In this document: positions 4,865 to 22,250 of the stretch, piece after piece | Layout: the number at the start of each line of letters is the position of its first letter | Position numbering within the stretch: the stretch's first letter is position 1 | Virus record (IMG/VR): IMGVR_UViG_3300010885_027199 | Span: 1-23,481 of that record | Direction: 5' to 3' (one strand) | DNA: 23,481 bases | From: a virus | Notes under the pieces: model-generated | What the model saw: the letters and a program-made list of their open reading frames with translations, nothing else | Told to the model about the DNA's origin: nothing | Databases searched by the model: none | Position numbers and translations under genes: made by a program

Positions 4865-5227
4865 ATGTCGCACATTGCACAGATCAAGACAGAAGTCCGC
4901 GACGCATCGGCCGTGGAAGCCGCTTGCCGCCGGCTCGGACTGGAACAGCCCACGACGGGCACGTTCGGCGTCTATGTCGTCCAGCGCACCGGTATGGGCG
5001 TCAAGCTCCCGGGCTGGCAGTACCCGGTCGTCTGCAACCTCGAAACCGGCGCAGTCGATTTTGATAACTATAACGGCGGCTGGGGCAACCAGAAGGAACT
5101 CGACAAGTTCCTGCAGGCCTACGCAACCGAGAAGGCGATCCATGAGGCCCAGAAGGGCGGCTATTCGGTATTTGAGCAGGTTCTGGAAGACGGTTCGATC
5201 AAGCTTAACATCACTGTGGAGGGTTGA
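4865..5227 (+). CDS. DUF1257 (Ycf35-like) protein
   Basis: A 120-residue protein of the DUF1257 family, known as Ycf35 in algal plastids and cyanobacteria; its biochemical role is unknown. Seen: the start 'MSHIAQIKTEVRD' followed by a helix ('AVEAACRRLGL'), a central beta region, an 'ELDKFLQAYA..KAIHEA' helix, and the family's C-terminal strand pair 'GYSVFEQVLEDGSIKLNI'. The length is usual for the family. AAGGAAAG precedes the ATG. DUF1257, DUF2997 and a Ycf46-like AAA+ gene are often neighbours in phages and bacteria, and the same order is found here. Confidence 0.85.
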   Translation: MSHIAQIKTEVRDASAVEAACRRLGLEQPTTGTFGVYVVQRTGMGVKLPGWQYPVVCNLETGAVDFDNYNGGWGNQKELDKFLQAYATEKAIHEAQKGGYSVFEQVLEDGSIKLNITVEG

Positions 5228-5232
5228 TACAC

Positions 5233-5424
5233 ATGAGCAAGACCATTCAGATCACCATCTCGCCCAAGGGCGAAACGAAGATTGAGACGCAGGGTTTCAC
5301 GGGCAGCTCGTGTCAGGACGCCACCCGTGCGCTGGAAGCGGCGCTTGGCGCCAAGACGAGCGACACGCTGACTGGCGAGTATTACGCCGCCAGCAACGAG
5401 CAGACGAACGAGATCGAAAACTAA
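5233..5424 (+). CDS. DUF2997 protein
   Basis: A 63-residue protein matching the DUF2997 pattern: a short N-terminal strand pair ('TIQITISPKGETKIETQGFTG'), then 'GSSCQDATRALEAALGA', then a 'YYA' tail. Function is unknown; in other genomes it sits beside DUF1257 and an AAA+ ATPase, as here. GGAGGG (5218-5223) is spaced for the ATG at 5233. The in-frame TTG at 5224 is less likely. Confidence 0.85.
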   Translation: MSKTIQITISPKGETKIETQGFTGSSCQDATRALEAALGAKTSDTLTGEYYAASNEQTNEIEN

Positions 5425-5445: not shown

Positions 5446-6393
5446 ATGTCGCTCGAAACCGAAATCAAGGAACTGGTGTGTGCCGGCTTTTCCGGCATCT
5501 GGGTTGAATCGCAGGAGTGCGACGACGCCATCGACTCTATCCGCAAGCTCGCCGACGAAAAGGACTGGGGCTTCGACGTCTGGGACATCGACCGCGAGCT
5601 GTATTCGGCCGCGGCTAAGGCACCCGGCCCCGTCGAGGCGCTCAAGTATCTGGATCAGCCGCAGCAAAAGAGCACGACTATTTTCGTGCTTAAGAACTTC
5701 CACCGGTTCCTTGGCAACCCGCAGGTGCTGCAGACGCTGGCCAATCGGCTGGTGACCGGTAAGAGCAAGGGGCAGCATATCGTGATCACGGCCCCCGTAA
5801 TTGCGCTGCAGCCCGAGGTCGAGAAGATGTTCACGGTTGTTCACCACGAACTGCCCGATCGCGCGCAGCTGACGACTCTGTGCAACTCGCTGTTCACGGC
5901 TGACTCCGAGTTCAAGAAGCCAGCTGATAACGACGTGCAGGTTGTCGTGGACGCTGCCAAGGGTCTGACCCGGCAGGAAGCCGAAGACGCGTTCGCGCTG
6001 TCGCTTGTGCGTAATCGCAAACTGGCGGCCGATACTATCTGGACGATCAAGGCCCAGACGTTGGAAAAGAGCGGCACCCTGTCGCTCTATCGCGGCGACG
6101 CGGACTTCGAGAATCTCGGTGGCCTCGAAAACCTGAAAAGCTTCTGCCTGCGCGCCATGCGCCGGCAGGGCGAGACGAATGTCGACAAGCGGCCCAAGGG
6201 CGTGCTCCTGCTGTCGCCTCCGGGCTGCGGCAAATCTCAGTTCGCCAAGGCGCTAGGCAACGAGGTCGGCCGCCCCACGGTGATGCTCGACTTCGGTAGC
6301 CTGATGGGCAAGTTCGTCGGTGAGTCCGAGGGTAACATGCGCCGAGCCCTCAAGCAGGTCGACGCCATGGCGCCGTGCGTTCTTTTTGTGGAT
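5446..6393 (+). CDS. AAA+ ATPase (Ycf46-like), exon 1
   Basis: First 316 residues of a 495-residue ATPase whose second exon is 7208-7747. Residues 1-200 form the N-terminal region typical of Ycf46-like proteins, including the strand-rich 'STTIFVLKNFHRFLG' and 'HIVITAPVIALQPEVEKMF'. The AAA+ core follows: 'FENLGGLENLK' at 221-231; Walker A SPPGCGKS at 257-264, with K263; pore-loop-like 'MGKFVGESEGNMRRAL' at 287-302; and the first half of Walker B, CVLFVD, at 311-316. The frame meets TGA immediately at 6394-6396. Joining D316 to the GAA at 7208 restores 'VDEIEKGLAG', the Ycf46 Walker B. Unspliced RNA would give a protein lacking the catalytic Glu. AAGGA precedes the ATG. The partner genes DUF1257 and DUF2997 lie directly upstream. 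Confidence 0.9.
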
Positions 6394-7207
6394 TGAATTC
6401 AGTCCCCTGATTTGGCAACAAATCAGCGCAAAGCCCTTTAATTGCAAGAAACTCCTCAGCGTAAGCCGGACAACTTGCAGCCAAGCCAAGTAATACTACA
6501 CTTGGAAGGTTCAACGACTAGATCGAAAGATCGTAGGACCCAAGTGGGTTCGAAACGGGGGCCTTGTAGTAGAGTTTTGAAATGTGGTCAAAAAAATATT
6601 CCTGCTGCCAAACATGCGCAAAAACAGAAAAACCGCATATGGCAAAAGGACTGTGCAAAATTTGTTATTTAGCTCGTTATCGCAACGATGACGCAAATCG
6701 TCAACGGATAACAAAGTTAAAAAAACAATGGTACTACGACAATTATGCCGACTGTTTACGGTACAGAAAAGAATACCGAGAACAAAAGCATTTTGACGGG
6801 CAAAGAAGCTCGGTTATTGCACGCGATGAGCAGCGCTGCTCTCGTTGCGGTAATACAAACAAACTTGTCGTACACCACAAAGATCGTTTAGGGCGCGGAA
6901 AAAAAAATCCAAACAACGTCCTCGATAATCTTGAAACAGTTTGTAGACGCTGTCATCTTTTAGAACACAAGATAGAGCTACAAGTTGCACGCACAGAAAA
7001 ATACGCCACACCCAAACTTTTAAAGTGTGGCCGCTGGAGCACGCAACATACTGCGTGTATTTCATGCGGCCTCACAACGTCACCACATGCGTCAAAAGGT
7101 TTATGCAACCGATGCAATGTGAGACGTTACGCTACAAGATGACATAGTCTGGTCCTGTATGAAAGTACAGGAGAATTAGCGGTAACGGCTAATTCGTAAC
7201 ACAAACG
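6394..7207 (+). mobile_element. Group I intron (IA-type) with internal HNH ORF
   Basis: An 814-nt self-splicing intron. The last exon base is T (6393) and the last intron base is G (7207), as group I requires. P1: exon GGAT (6390-6393) pairs with guide GTCC (6402-6405), with U-G at the cut. P2: CTGATTTG/CAAATCAG (6407-6414, 6419-6426). P3: 6429-6436 with 6559-6566, one mismatch. A P-element AATTGC begins at 6440. P6 is CCAAG/CTTGG. P7: GACTA (6516-6520) with TAGTC (7145-7149). P7.1 and P7.2 are at 6521-6532 and 6536-6551; these extra stems mark subgroup IA. Two 3' hairpins follow: 7153-7172 with a GAAA tetraloop, and 7173-7195. The HNH gene sits in the P8 loop, between P3' and P7'. A possible P10 is TTC/GAA. 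The intron is richer in A+T than its exons. Confidence 0.93.
6582..7142 (+). CDS. HNH homing endonuclease in the group I intron
   Basis: A 186-residue homing endonuclease that would cut intron-less copies of the ATPase gene and spread the intron. The HNH core has C86xxC89, the catalytic pair H98-H99, 'NNVLDNLETVCRRCH' with C121xxC124 and H125, and H129. It is flanked by two similar zinc ribbons. The first is C9xxC12 with C25xxC28 ('PHMAKGLCKICYLARY'). The second is C159xxC162 with C175xxC178 ('PHASKGLCNRCNVRRY'). Internal spacing is the same in both, so they look like a duplication. The basic middle region (residues 40-70) probably contacts DNA. The ribosome site is weak. The 3' end reaches to within three bases of the P7 strand at 7145, so translation could disturb intron folding. 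Confidence 0.9.
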   Translation: MWSKKYSCCQTCAKTEKPHMAKGLCKICYLARYRNDDANRQRITKLKKQWYYDNYADCLRYRKEYREQKHFDGQRSSVIARDEQRCSRCGNTNKLVVHHKDRLGRGKKNPNNVLDNLETVCRRCHLLEHKIELQVARTEKYATPKLLKCGRWSTQHTACISCGLTTSPHASKGLCNRCNVRRYATR

Positions 7208-7747
7208 GAAATTGAAAAGGGTTTGGCGGGCGTCGGTAGCTCCGGCCAGACGGACTCCGGCGTATCTGCCCGGCTGTTCGGCACGCTGCTGACGTGGCTC
7301 AACGACCACACCAGCGACGTGTTCTTCATCGGTACCTGCAATGACGCTAGCCAGCTGCCGGCGCCTTTCGCACGTGCTGAGCGTTTCGACGGCGTGTTCT
7401 TCGTAGACCTGCCGGCTGCCGATCAGCGTGCGGCGATCTGGGATATATATCTGGATCACTTCGGTATCGACAAGGGTCAGGCCAAGCCAGACGACTCAAA
7501 CTGGACTGGTGCTGAGATCAAGTCGTGCTGCCGCTTGGCTGCGCTGCTTGAGATCCCGCTTGTCGAGTCGGCTCAGAACGTCGTGCCGGTGTCGGTAACG
7601 TCGGCCGAGCAAATCGAGCATCTGCGCAACTGGGCTGAGGGTCGCTGCCTGTCTGCTGACAACAAGGGTATTTACACCCGTGTCGGCAAGCCAGTGCAGC
7701 AGCCGACCACCCGGCGCCGGATGGTCAACGGTTCGTCCGCGAACTGA
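7208..7747 (+). CDS. AAA+ ATPase (Ycf46-like), exon 2
   Basis: Last 179 residues of the split ATPase. It opens with EIEKGLAGVG, completing Walker B and supplying the catalytic Glu as its first codon. 'SGVSARLFGTLLTWLND' follows, then sensor 1 in 'VFFIGTCNDASQLP', an arginine-finger region 'RAERFDGVFFVDLP', the lid helices 'RAAIWDIYLDHFG', and a sensor-2-like 'WTGAEIKSCCRLAAL'. The C-terminal tail is basic and likely disordered (RRRMVNGSSAN). Read alone, the frame could only start at the TTG at 7223, with no good ribosome site, so a separate gene is unlikely. The substrate is unknown. Confidence 0.9.
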   Translation, partial: EIEKGLAGVGSSGQTDSGVSARLFGTLLTWLNDHTSDVFFIGTCNDASQLPAPFARAERFDGVFFVDLPAADQRAAIWDIYLDHFGIDKGQAKPDDSNWTGAEIKSCCRLAALLEIPLVESAQNVVPVSVTSAEQIEHLRNWAEGRCLSADNKGIYTRVGKPVQQPTTRRRMVNGSSAN

Positions 7748-8760: not shown

Positions 8761-9759
8761 ATGTTTGAAGTCGTTTTACCGGCGCCGGAGCTGAAGCCAG
8801 ACGCTTCGGCGCCGGTGGCCAAAAAGCCCCGCAAAGCGCGGGCACCGAAACATGATTTCAGAGACGGCCGCGGCAAAGTATTTGCGCACCGACACGTATA
8901 CGGTAACGGCTGGGTCGAAGATACAGCCAAGGTTGCTGACACGGTTTATGTCGGCAGGCTTGCCGAAGTATTTAATAACGCAGTCATCGAAAACGACGTT
9001 GCAGTCAGAGATCGTGCAAAAGTCTGCGGCAACGCGTATGTCCGAGATCGTGTTCGGGTGATGCGGCGTGCGTACATCGGTGGTAATGCGCTGGTCTATG
9101 ACGACGCAACGATACGCGACGAGGCTATCGTCAATGGCGGCACTATTTGCGGGCACAGCGTTATCAAAGATAGCGCCATCGTGCGCGAGTATCCGTTCAT
9201 CAAGGGCGGTACACTCTGCGACAAATCGCAAATCAGCGGCTACGTACAGTTCTTAAACTCTACGGCGCAAAGTCACGTATATTTGCGGCACAATTGCATT
9301 GTGTTAAACGCGACGCTAAACGGTTATATTACCGTGAAAAACACAGCGCGGGTCATCAACAGTTCGTTGTATATGACAGCTAAGCACCGCGCGCACGAAC
9401 ACGATGAAAGCGGGCACCTGCTCGTTAGCGACGACGTCACAATCGTGGGTTGCGATAACTTTCACGCGTTTCTGCACATCAAGGGGCACACAAAGATCGT
9501 TGGCGGCGAAATCCGATTGTCGCCGGCATGGAACTCCGATACGCGCGAATATATCCGGGCTGAAACGCTGACAACGGCAATCTTTCCAAACGCCCGTATC
9601 CGCAATCTGGAACAGTTCCAAACGTATAACAACGCCGATATCAATGCTCGGGCTGGTACAGCGCAGGCCGTACTAGCGTCGATGCCCGCGATGCGGCAAC
9701 CGTTTGATTTTGCAGCTACGACTGGCCGGCGTGTAATGTCTACGGGAGATAACACATGA
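8761..9759 (+). CDS. Hexapeptide-repeat, beta-helix-like protein
   Basis: A 332-residue protein. From about residue 40 to 210 it is built of short repeats of the form V-x-(G/D)-x-A-x-V, for example 'VYGNGWVEDTAKVADTVYV', 'AVIENDVAVRDRAKVCGNA' and 'ALVYDDATIRDEAIVNGG'. This is the left-handed beta-helix pattern of hexapeptide acyltransferases and of phage and bacterial repeat proteins. No catalytic histidine arrangement could be assigned, so it may be purely structural. The first 35 residues are Pro/Lys-rich and disordered. 'TKIVGGEIRLSPAWNSDTREYI' near 240-270 departs from the repeat and may be a cap. GGAG stands 5 bases before the ATG; the previous stop is 2 bases away. The neighbour AAA+ module suggests co-expression, not necessarily joint function. 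Confidence 0.8.
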   Translation: MFEVVLPAPELKPDASAPVAKKPRKARAPKHDFRDGRGKVFAHRHVYGNGWVEDTAKVADTVYVGRLAEVFNNAVIENDVAVRDRAKVCGNAYVRDRVRVMRRAYIGGNALVYDDATIRDEAIVNGGTICGHSVIKDSAIVREYPFIKGGTLCDKSQISGYVQFLNSTAQSHVYLRHNCIVLNATLNGYITVKNTARVINSSLYMTAKHRAHEHDESGHLLVSDDVTIVGCDNFHAFLHIKGHTKIVGGEIRLSPAWNSDTREYIRAETLTTAIFPNARIRNLEQFQTYNNADINARAGTAQAVLASMPAMRQPFDFAATTGRRVMSTGDNT

Positions 9760-13562: not shown

Positions 13563-13910
13563 TTGCTGATCAACGAGACGTGGTATCACGATGAGACGCC
13601 TGTAGAAGTAATAAGCGTGTTGGAATCCTGTCGATTAAACAAAACCCGCATCAAGTTCCGGTACGGACATACAACAGGTCCAGACGCCGGCATCGATTGG
13701 GGCGACAGCATGGACCAATGCGGATACGTAGGCCGCAGCGGCGGAACTATGAAAGTCCCGCTTGTGATCTACAACAAACGCGCACTAGGCGGTCCGCATA
13801 TTCTCGACCATAAGATTATCAAGATTCAGACATCCCGCGGCGGCAAGGTGCTTTATCAGCACCCCATGTACCAACCGCATTCCGAAGTCGCTAACCTAAC
13901 AACCACATGA
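13563..13910 (+). CDS. Conserved hypothetical protein (IDWGDSMDQCGYVGRS type)
   Basis: A 115-residue beta-rich protein. 'RIKFRYGHTTGPDAGIDWGD', 'GYVGRSGGTMKVPLVIYNKRALGGPHILDHKIIKI' and 'LYQHPMYQP' form a pattern I associate with small phage and environmental proteins; no function is known. The start is a TTG after AAAGGGGC. No ATG precedes the conserved 'INETWYHDETPVEVISVLE', so a rare start codon is needed. It overlaps the next gene by 4 bases (ATGA). Confidence 0.75.
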   Translation: MLINETWYHDETPVEVISVLESCRLNKTRIKFRYGHTTGPDAGIDWGDSMDQCGYVGRSGGTMKVPLVIYNKRALGGPHILDHKIIKIQTSRGGKVLYQHPMYQPHSEVANLTTT

Positions 13911-15382
13911 AATCCAAGATCTCCAAGGCGCATAGCGCAATTGTTCAAGAAACGTTTGAGCGCTGGGAAAACAATGTTTACGCCGGCGTACCGAATATTG
14001 AAAAAGCTAAAACGTATCTCCGGGCAGCATATAAGAACGGCATCGGCACTCACCGTAAAGCTAAACACAAGCTCAAAGACGTCAAGTTTCTTACCGTAGC
14101 GTCGCCAGTTGCGTTCATGCTTGCCGTCACGGTTACGCGTGGCCGTATGAACAAAAAGTGGGCTACAGAGATTTGCGGCTTGCTCGGCCTCGACCCGGGG
14201 TTTTTGAAAGACCTGCGCCGCGATCCGCTAGCAAAATGGAACGGCGGCAATCGGCGCTGGTGGCATAACGCTAACAGCGAGTTTAGCCGCACGTGGCTGC
14301 GTGCTATTCGAGCGGAATACCTTACGCAAGAGCGCTTGGTATCTCGAACCACAGGCCTCATTAGTACGCAATTTCGTTCTCGATTTAGCGCTGACAGTGA
14401 AAACGCTGCGGTGGCGTACAACACAAACTCGCTAGACAACGTTATGCGGATGGTAGCGTCGCTTCTAAATGATTACAACGCGCTGGAAAGCAAGATTGAA
14501 TTGCGGCGCGGTTGGGATGGCAATGAGAGGCGGGACACAGTCACATTCACAAGCAAAAAACTCGGCGAAATTGCTAGCTCTGCCCTGTGGGACAACAACA
14601 TTACGCTCAGCGCTATCGGCGAGCTGCGCAAGGCTATCGACATCGAAGACGTTGTACGAAATGCAAACAACGCAGTAGCGCGTGGCGGCGACGCCATATT
14701 TCTTGGCAATATTCCCAAAGCTATCGACGCGGAGATCTTGTCACGGATCCTGCACATCAACGATCCCGAGCTGACGTGGGAGCACGAAGTCTTCCATCAC
14801 TGCACCGCGTTTGCAGCGTTCCAGTCGTCTTGCATTATTCTGGCCGATCGCCCGACCATGCACACAAACGAAGCAGGCAACCTGCACAGCACGACAGGAC
14901 CGGCTGTGTCGTGGACTGACGGTACCCGGCTTTGGTTTAACGACGGGCACTACATGGAAGAAGGCGGTAGATACATTGTAGATACGCCAAACAAGCTCAC
15001 GACTGCGCACATCCTGCGAATTAACAATGAGGAAACGCGCCGGCTGGCGATTGAGCAGTTTGGCTGGGATAAGTTCATTGTCGAGGCTGACTGCCCGGTG
15101 CTTGACCGGCGCACGAACGATATTGATAACACTATCGAGATGCTGGTCGGCGCGCCGCGGTCACAGTCTAGCGCAGAAGACGTACGCTGGAGCCGCCCGC
15201 AGCAGAACCGTATGGTCTTGTTCTGCCGGTCTACTGGTCGGCGATATTTCTTGAGCGTTCCAAGCACCGTTCAAACGTGCAGCGCCGCGCAAGCATGGAT
15301 GGCCAATGACGGCACTGATTCTGACACCCGGTCCCTTGTCTCCTATGCGTCGAAGCCCATGCGGTTGCTTGGCGCTTCTTGA
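13907..15382 (+). CDS. DUF6745-like large protein
   Basis: The largest gene of this run, 491 residues. The N-terminal half (1-300) is helical with 'ALWDNNITLSAIGELRKAID' and 'RILHINDPELTWEHEVFHHCTAFAAFQSSCIILADRP'. The second half has 'NLHSTTGPAVSWTDGTRLWFNDGHY' and 'ITxxHILRINNEETRRLAIEQFG', the DUF6745 signature ('GPAVxWxDG', then 'N.E.RR'). It ends with a beta block 'MVLFCRSTGRRYFLSVPSTVQTCSAAQAWM'. Function is unknown. The gene at 15412 often accompanies DUF6745 genes, as far as I recall. The ATG at 13907 overlaps the prior gene by 4 bases. An N-terminal Lys/Arg-rich stretch may bind nucleic acid. Confidence 0.8.
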   Translation: MKSKISKAHSAIVQETFERWENNVYAGVPNIEKAKTYLRAAYKNGIGTHRKAKHKLKDVKFLTVASPVAFMLAVTVTRGRMNKKWATEICGLLGLDPGFLKDLRRDPLAKWNGGNRRWWHNANSEFSRTWLRAIRAEYLTQERLVSRTTGLISTQFRSRFSADSENAAVAYNTNSLDNVMRMVASLLNDYNALESKIELRRGWDGNERRDTVTFTSKKLGEIASSALWDNNITLSAIGELRKAIDIEDVVRNANNAVARGGDAIFLGNIPKAIDAEILSRILHINDPELTWEHEVFHHCTAFAAFQSSCIILADRPTMHTNEAGNLHSTTGPAVSWTDGTRLWFNDGHYMEEGGRYIVDTPNKLTTAHILRINNEETRRLAIEQFGWDKFIVEADCPVLDRRTNDIDNTIEMLVGAPRSQSSAEDVRWSRPQQNRMVLFCRSTGRRYFLSVPSTVQTCSAAQAWMANDGTDSDTRSLVSYASKPMRLLGAS

Positions 15383-21447: not shown

Positions 21448-21936
21448 ATGTCTACGATTCGCCGCGGCAATATCGTCCGCAGGAATGACCGCTGTGTTTG
21501 TGGCAGCGGCAAGAAGTTCAAGCACTGCTGTTCTCCCGATGCCCCCAGTCGGCCTAAGCAGTACATTCAGCCGTCGGTGCGATACATCGACACTGGCGAG
21601 GAAGCTGTGCGCTGGGTGATCTGCGACGACACCGGCGTAAAATTCTTCTCCGACAAAGACAACCGGATTCTGGTATTTAAAACCCGCGCTGCCGCTACAG
21701 CCGTGGCTTTGCTTGACGACTTTGCGGCTCAAGAATCTGGCGAAATTAATATAGCCAGCGTAGGCCCGACCAAGTGGGCGCACTTGCAGGAGATCTTGCC
21801 GTTCGTCGAGATTGACGACGTTCACGACGGTATTGCATTATTGCGCGAGCGTATCGACCTTGAGCTTGCAAAATATGAATCTTTGAGTGACCAAGTAGAT
21901 CCACCCACCCCGCCGGCACAGGAGGCCGCAGAATGA
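21448..21936 (+). CDS. SEC-C motif zinc-binding protein
   Basis: A 162-residue protein. Residues 12-28 are 'RNDRCVCGSGKKFKHCC', the SEC-C motif: C16, C18, C27 and C28 bind one zinc ion. SEC-C is found at the C-terminus of SecA and in many small proteins, and usually mediates protein contact. The rest is alpha/beta with 'VRWVICDDTGVKFFSDKDNRILVFKTRAAATAVALLDD' and a Pro-rich tail. A partner is not visible. AAGGAGG lies 6 bases upstream of the ATG. The MazG-like gene starts inside its stop (ATGA). Confidence 0.85.
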   Translation: MSTIRRGNIVRRNDRCVCGSGKKFKHCCSPDAPSRPKQYIQPSVRYIDTGEEAVRWVICDDTGVKFFSDKDNRILVFKTRAAATAVALLDDFAAQESGEINIASVGPTKWAHLQEILPFVEIDDVHDGIALLRERIDLELAKYESLSDQVDPPTPPAQEAAE

Positions 21937-22250
21937 CGTTTCAGGAATTAGAAGCCAAGGTTATTGAATGGGCTTGCTTGCGGCAGATCATTCCTAACAG
22001 CAATCCCACTTCGCAGCTCATGAAAACCATGTCGGAGTTAGGCGAGCTTGCCGACGCTACCCTCAAGGGTAACATGCGGGGTGTCCAAGACGGCGTAGGC
22101 GATGTGATTGTGACCCTTATCCTGTATTGCAAATTGTCTGGCACAAATATTACAGACTGTCTGGCCGGTGCCTACGACGAGATCAAAGACCGCAAAGGAA
22201 CTCTTACTGCGGAAGGCATTTTTGTGAAAGAAGAGAAAGGGACTTCGTGA
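21933..22250 (+). CDS. MazG-like nucleotide pyrophosphohydrolase
   Basis: A 105-residue protein of the all-alpha NTP pyrophosphohydrolase (MazG-like) superfamily, which hydrolyses NTPs to NMP and pyrophosphate. Seen: 'MKTMSELGELADATLKG' with E35xxE38, then 'GVQDGVGDVIVTLILYC' with D53 and D57 (the ExxE...ExxD-type metal site), then 'YDEIKDRKGTLTAEGIFVKE', the usual C-terminal block. The length is typical for a single-domain phage MazG. Phage versions may balance nucleotides or lower alarmone levels; that role is from the family. Coupled to both neighbours by ATGA/GTGA. Confidence 0.85.
   Translation: MTFQELEAKVIEWACLRQIIPNSNPTSQLMKTMSELGELADATLKGNMRGVQDGVGDVIVTLILYCKLSGTNITDCLAGAYDEIKDRKGTLTAEGIFVKEEKGTS

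Follow-up and report, generated by a model that had tools for sequence, protein, structure and literature searches.

A probable mobile group I intron with an HNH gene separates the Walker B Asp codon from the Glu codon in a phage AAA+ ATPase gene

We describe an insertion in a phage AAA+ ATPase gene that is, with a probability of about 0.9, a mobile group I intron of IA2 type, carrying a gene for an HNH homing endonuclease in its P8, lying between the codons for the Walker B Asp and Glu, and spreading by homing. The sequence analyzed, hereafter the window, is an IMG/VR virus record of 23,481 bases (IMGVR_UViG_3300010885_027199). Relatives of the intron interrupt this codon pair in phage ATPases that differ widely, a distribution suggesting that the element spreads by aiming at DNA that the ATPase cannot afford to change. 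This supports a first-pass annotation of the window, made from the letters alone, which had stated that such introns favor invariant codons. The HNH reading frame, the pattern of homing and the occurrence of related elements at these codons in distant ATPases go beyond what that annotation contained.

Results

The ATPase gene is divided into two exons on the plus strand. Exon 1 (5446-6393; 316 codons) includes Walker A and ends with GAT, the codon for the Walker B Asp, directly after which the frame is halted by TGA at 6394-6396, and exon 2 (7208-7747) runs from the Walker B Glu codon (GAA, 7208-7210) through sensor 1 to the stop codon. Both the halt and the proposal that joining base 6393 to base 7208 restores the ATPase were part of the first-pass annotation, and both held up: the joined frame encodes 495 aa and reads VLFVDEIEKGLAG across the junction. 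The AAA domain PF00004 and PHROG 8638 match both exon halves, and the exon ends agree with alignments to uninterrupted relatives. The product has an AAA domain with Walker A, the Walker B Asp-Glu pair and sensor 1, as expected of an AAA+ ATPase, and its best solved relatives are CDC48/p97-type chains (E about 1e-42). PHROG 8638 is a phage family of unknown function. Genes for DUF1257 (4865-5227; PF06868) and DUF2997 (5236-5424; PF11211) lie upstream on the same strand. The name Ycf46-like used in the first-pass annotation is tentative: what was observed is the PHROG 8638 match, general AAA matches and the DUF1257 and DUF2997 neighbors. The G+C content of the intron is 44% vs. 61% for the exons.

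Elsewhere in the window we noted a 332-aa protein of hexapeptide-repeat type (8761-9759) with matches to several phage families whose function is unknown, a 491-aa protein with a DUF6745 match (13907-15382) and a gene for a MazG-like pyrophosphatase (21933-22250).

The intron itself (6394-7207, plus strand; 814 nt) is delimited by its exact absence from intronless relatives. The earlier assignment to group I was confirmed by the Rfam covariance search that had been proposed as a check: RF00028 matched positions 6384-7171 over the whole model with 68.9 bits (E 7.8e-16; cut-off 50 bits) and was the sole RNA family in the window to exceed its cut-off. The 5′ U, 3′ G, P1 guide and P7 pairing that had been cited for this assignment were all found. 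In P1 (6390-6405) the 5′ exon GGAU pairs with the guide GUCC, placing a U6393/G6402 wobble at the 5′ splice site; the exon and guide change together in related introns, and the terminal intron base is G7207. P2 forms as well. The core (within 6433-6562) consists of P3 (6433-6436/6559-6562), P4 (6444-6448/6474-6478), P5 (6453-6455/6468-6470), P6 (6481-6482/6508-6509) and P6a (6486-6491/6500-6505), while P7 is formed by GACUA (6516-6520) and UAGUC (7145-7149). P7.1 (6521-6524/6529-6532) and P7.2 (6536-6541/6546-6551) together span 6521-6551, show compensatory changes and are linked by GUA, the feature by which subgroup IA2 is recognized (PMC3428280) and which assigns the predicted fold to that subgroup, supporting the IA type first annotated. 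P8 (6563-6570/7131-7138) holds nearly all of the HNH open reading frame in its loop (6563-7138), and P9 (7153-7159/7166-7172) and P9.1 (7173-7180/7188-7195) complete the structure (7153-7195). Among five distinct alleles, all 70 pairs are kept (100% paired), and both sides have changed in three of them. Counting against our reading, P10 comprises just 3 bp in the window and P1 only 4-6 bp. A search with the start of the intron as a DNA pattern found the intron at this site alone; the other hits appear to be chance matches.

The predicted homing endonuclease gene (6582-7142, plus strand) encodes 186 aa, with Cys-rich repeats flanking an HNH core. It belongs to a homing endonuclease family by its matches to PF01844 (26.6 bits; cut-off 21.4) and to PHROG HNH families, and its reading frame is intact in every related intron seen. 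The ribosome-binding site before its start is weak in the window. A profile search of solved structures gave no match to the HNH protein, and its predicted model had weak matches to HNH nucleases (E > 0.001). Neither megablast of the whole window nor tblastn of the HNH protein matched any named phage, and relatives were therefore drawn from IMG/VR.

Scanning IMG/VR with an ATPase profile yielded 51 viral contigs. In 45 of these the ATPase gene is continuous across the Asp-Glu pair, and the remaining six carry the same intron there, one being truncated by the contig end. Cellular relatives were uninterrupted in 80 of 80 cases among the matches listed. These exact empty sites, in viral and cellular relatives alike, are strong evidence that the insertion falls on the very base given in the first-pass annotation, after the Walker B Asp codon and before that for Glu, and the alignment establishes that the two exons are normally one continuous gene. 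Nearly all of the cellular relatives are from Planctomycetota, which hints at this phylum as the likely hosts of these uncultured phages.

Movement of the intron is indicated by its spread, which is incongruent with the history of the host gene. The closest relatives of the window by exon sequence (L032 and L003; 95% protein and 87.7% nucleotide identity) both lack the intron, whereas the closest intron, shared by L026 and L035, is 91.4% identical to that of the window, in contrast to exons that are 78.9% identical between the window and L026 (63% at third positions). Given the well-supported branches of the exon tree, the intron must have been gained or lost four times. The flanking exon bases also differ by intron status: all intron-bearing alleles read GTG GAT/GAA AT (the slash marks the insertion point), whereas nearly all intronless alleles, including those of the window's sister phages, read GTC GAC/GAG ATC. 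The converted form of the site is GTGGAT/GAAATTGAA and the empty form GTCGAC/GAGATCGAG. At codons -2 and -1, synonymous identity was found in 18 of 18 comparisons between intron-bearing alleles of different lineages vs. 10 of 290 between intron-bearing and intronless alleles (84% among intronless alleles), and the difference fades within about four to eight codons. Against the guide of the window, an exon reading GUCGAC would form no U.G pair and would have one additional mismatch. The shared flank can be read as the joint outcome of short co-conversion tracts and the need for guide pairing, with selection for splicing as a possible alternative. One intronless allele, L029, the sister of L026, has the intron-type flank (GTGGAT/GAAATT at L029:4970-4985), and the two share a 24-codon identical run around the junction; L029 may have lost the intron precisely, or its site may have been converted without the intron. 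Taken together, introns more alike than their exons, incongruence with the exon tree and a shared flank are the pattern of homing with co-conversion, although the alleles that speak for recent homing are few, the close group having five distinct ones.

Wider loci were found with an HNH protein profile. Related HNH genes reside in a group I intron at the same ATPase Asp-Glu pair in L113/L114, L115, L116, L117, L208/L216 and L212. The ATPases of the window, L113, L115, L116 and L212 are 25-43% identical among themselves, and the latter four all match PHROG 8638. A core covariance model made with the intron of L113 and four introns from the close group of the window, five in all, detected the introns of L212, L118, L115, L117, L208 and L116 with E-values of 4e-27 to 8e-16, and had no match in L215, L211, L214, L003, L007 and L029. 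In the core alignment, which was fitted to the model and is favored by it in its pairing figures, 98.5% of cells pair and both sides have changed in 21 of 30 pairs; none of 500 shuffles reached 21 pairs, and sliding gave at most 7. Exon and guide covary, with GGAU and GUCC in the window, CAUCGAU and GUCGAUG in L115, and AUACUGGAU and GUUCAGUAU in L212, and every related intron located at the Asp codon retains the U.G pair of P1. The site rule is not absolute, because one contig (L118/L213) has a related intron with an HNH gene (L118:1640-2830) about 16 codons downstream of the Asp-Glu pair. The junction of this intron is unsure, as the reading frame wants G, not U, before the cut.

A further group I intron with a related HNH gene interrupts the large terminase subunit gene of L215 (2352-3357), again at the Walker B Asp-Glu pair. 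The joined exons read DVVVFD/EIDRMSP, and matches to GpA_ATPase (PF05876) and PHROG 675 span the junction. Its HNH protein falls in the 42% class (query residues 2-184, E 2e-27 relative to the candidates). The group I match is weaker than in the window (41.2 bits, E 4e-7), and the ribozyme lies outside the reach of the core model, indicating a different group I ribozyme. At the 3′ junction, the string TCG/GAAATTGA is identical in L215 and L113.

Discussion

The evidence presented above can be assembled into the following cycle of homing. The ribozyme would fold in the ATPase transcript and cleave after U6393 with the aid of guanosine, and ligation of GAU to GAA would then give the intact ATPase. 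When a relative with an uninterrupted ATPase allele co-infects, the HNH protein would cut or nick that allele near GTCGAC/GAGATCGAG; during repair, the intron and a few flanking exon bases would be copied into it. The copied flank would also provide the GUGGAU required by the guide of the intron. Because the target encodes the catalytic Asp-Glu pair, target phages would escape poorly by mutation, and the lineage could persist at the pair in ATPases that have diverged widely.

It is possible, though we consider it rather unlikely, that the intron also serves as a weapon in competition, its nuclease damaging the ATPase gene of co-infecting relatives by analogy with PhiPA3 gp210, for which there is precedent (PMC11620839). 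Such a role would be compatible with homing, and it is suggested by the HNH homing nuclease, its sporadic occurrence among close relatives and the essential-looking target codons; simple selfish homing, however, gives the same pattern. That the intron is now immobile, with its patchy distribution reflecting vertical inheritance and repeated losses, is improbable. The intron-type flank and identical run of intronless L029 do fit precise loss (or conversion without the intron), but the intron alleles of distant phages are more alike than their exons, and the sister phages of the window keep an unconverted GTC GAC/GAG. More doubtful still is the suggestion of the first-pass annotation that splicing acts as a switch, whereby the intron would be kept since it sets the timing of active ATPase. 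Unspliced RNA would yield a 316-aa protein ending before the catalytic Glu, and a regulatory role has been proposed for phage introns since splicing needs GTP (PMC11878797). Nevertheless, most related viral contigs, that of the nearest relative (95% identity) among them, lack the intron, which behaves as a mobile element that moves independently of its host gene with its HNH frame retained; since it is dispensable in most relatives, the switch finds no support. Finally, although each exon alone gives an open reading frame, separate genes or an assembly error can be discarded, because the gene is uninterrupted in all intronless relatives and seven contigs have the insertion at the same base.

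In kind, the element appears to be an ordinary mobile group I intron with an HNH gene. Phage IA2 introns of Pf-WMP3 (I-PfoP3I) and SPO1 (I-HmuI) resemble it in the P7.1/P7.2-GUA anatomy, in the intron-borne HNH reading frame and in targeting a conserved gene close to the point of insertion (PMC3428280). Their host gene is that of DNA polymerase, whereas here it encodes an AAA+ ATPase, the reading frame is in P8, and the HNH protein, whose core is flanked by Cys-rich repeats, matches nothing solved in sequence searches. In Bastillevirinae, too, group I introns with HNH genes have a patchy distribution in genes for NTP-using enzymes, namely terminase, polymerase and reductase (PMC11878797). We considered the SIOphi terminase introns as a case of the same site and rejected them, as that gene is interrupted elsewhere and its Walker B is intact. 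The large phage PhiPA3 likewise has a group I intron with an HNH protein, gp210, that a related phage lacks; gp210 differs in targeting an RNA polymerase gene and in that competition was shown there (PMC11620839), whereas the present case is known from sequence. For the td, nrdB and nrdD introns of T4, homing with co-conversion of exon flanks is established and the target genes are likewise conserved, but the host genes are others and the td and nrdD nucleases are of the GIY-YIG type (PMC2988022).

As far as the searched literature shows, the host gene is new: consistent with the first-pass annotation, the papers searched described no intron in genes of this ATPase family and none at the Walker B position of a phage gene, most subscription papers lying outside that scope. 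The ATPase would add a gene family to the hosts of mobile phage introns, and it is instructive that the Walker B codons have been chosen repeatedly. Moreover, nature supplies a series in the window (filled site), L032 (empty) and L029 (possibly vacated), in which homing, co-conversion and exon-guide coevolution can be tested at synonymous positions.

The simplest reading of the terminase case is that the nuclease lineage, rather than the ribozyme, picks the site. This is one case, and coincidence is possible, critical codons being frequent targets of homing nucleases (PMC3984707). Extending this reading, it is conceivable, at somewhat less than even odds, that the HNH lineage reads the Walker B DNA string (GAT/GAA ATT GA, for Asp-Glu-Ile-Asp/Glu) and not one gene, and that introns were so carried into ATPases of 25-43% identity and, with a different ribozyme, into a non-homologous terminase. 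In that case, an intron nuclease would follow a motif of proteins from one family to another. Whether homing nucleases can do so between unrelated genes is cleanly testable, since the Walker B pair is occupied repeatedly, in diverged ATPases as well as in a terminase.

Two of the wider loci contain related ATPases of this family, 39% identical, with a permuted motif order (L211:1372-2937 and L214:1453-2970). In these, a Walker B segment (DEVEK or DELDK) precedes Walker A, which is followed by sensor 1; the structure predicted for the L214 protein was too poor to use (pLDDT 44). A sub-threshold match to the twister-P1 ribozyme occurs at L211:552-620 (42.6 bits; cut-off 67.2). Directly 3′ of each permuted, intronless ATPase gene lies a free-standing relative of the intron HNH gene (L211:2968-3453 and L214:2974-3435).
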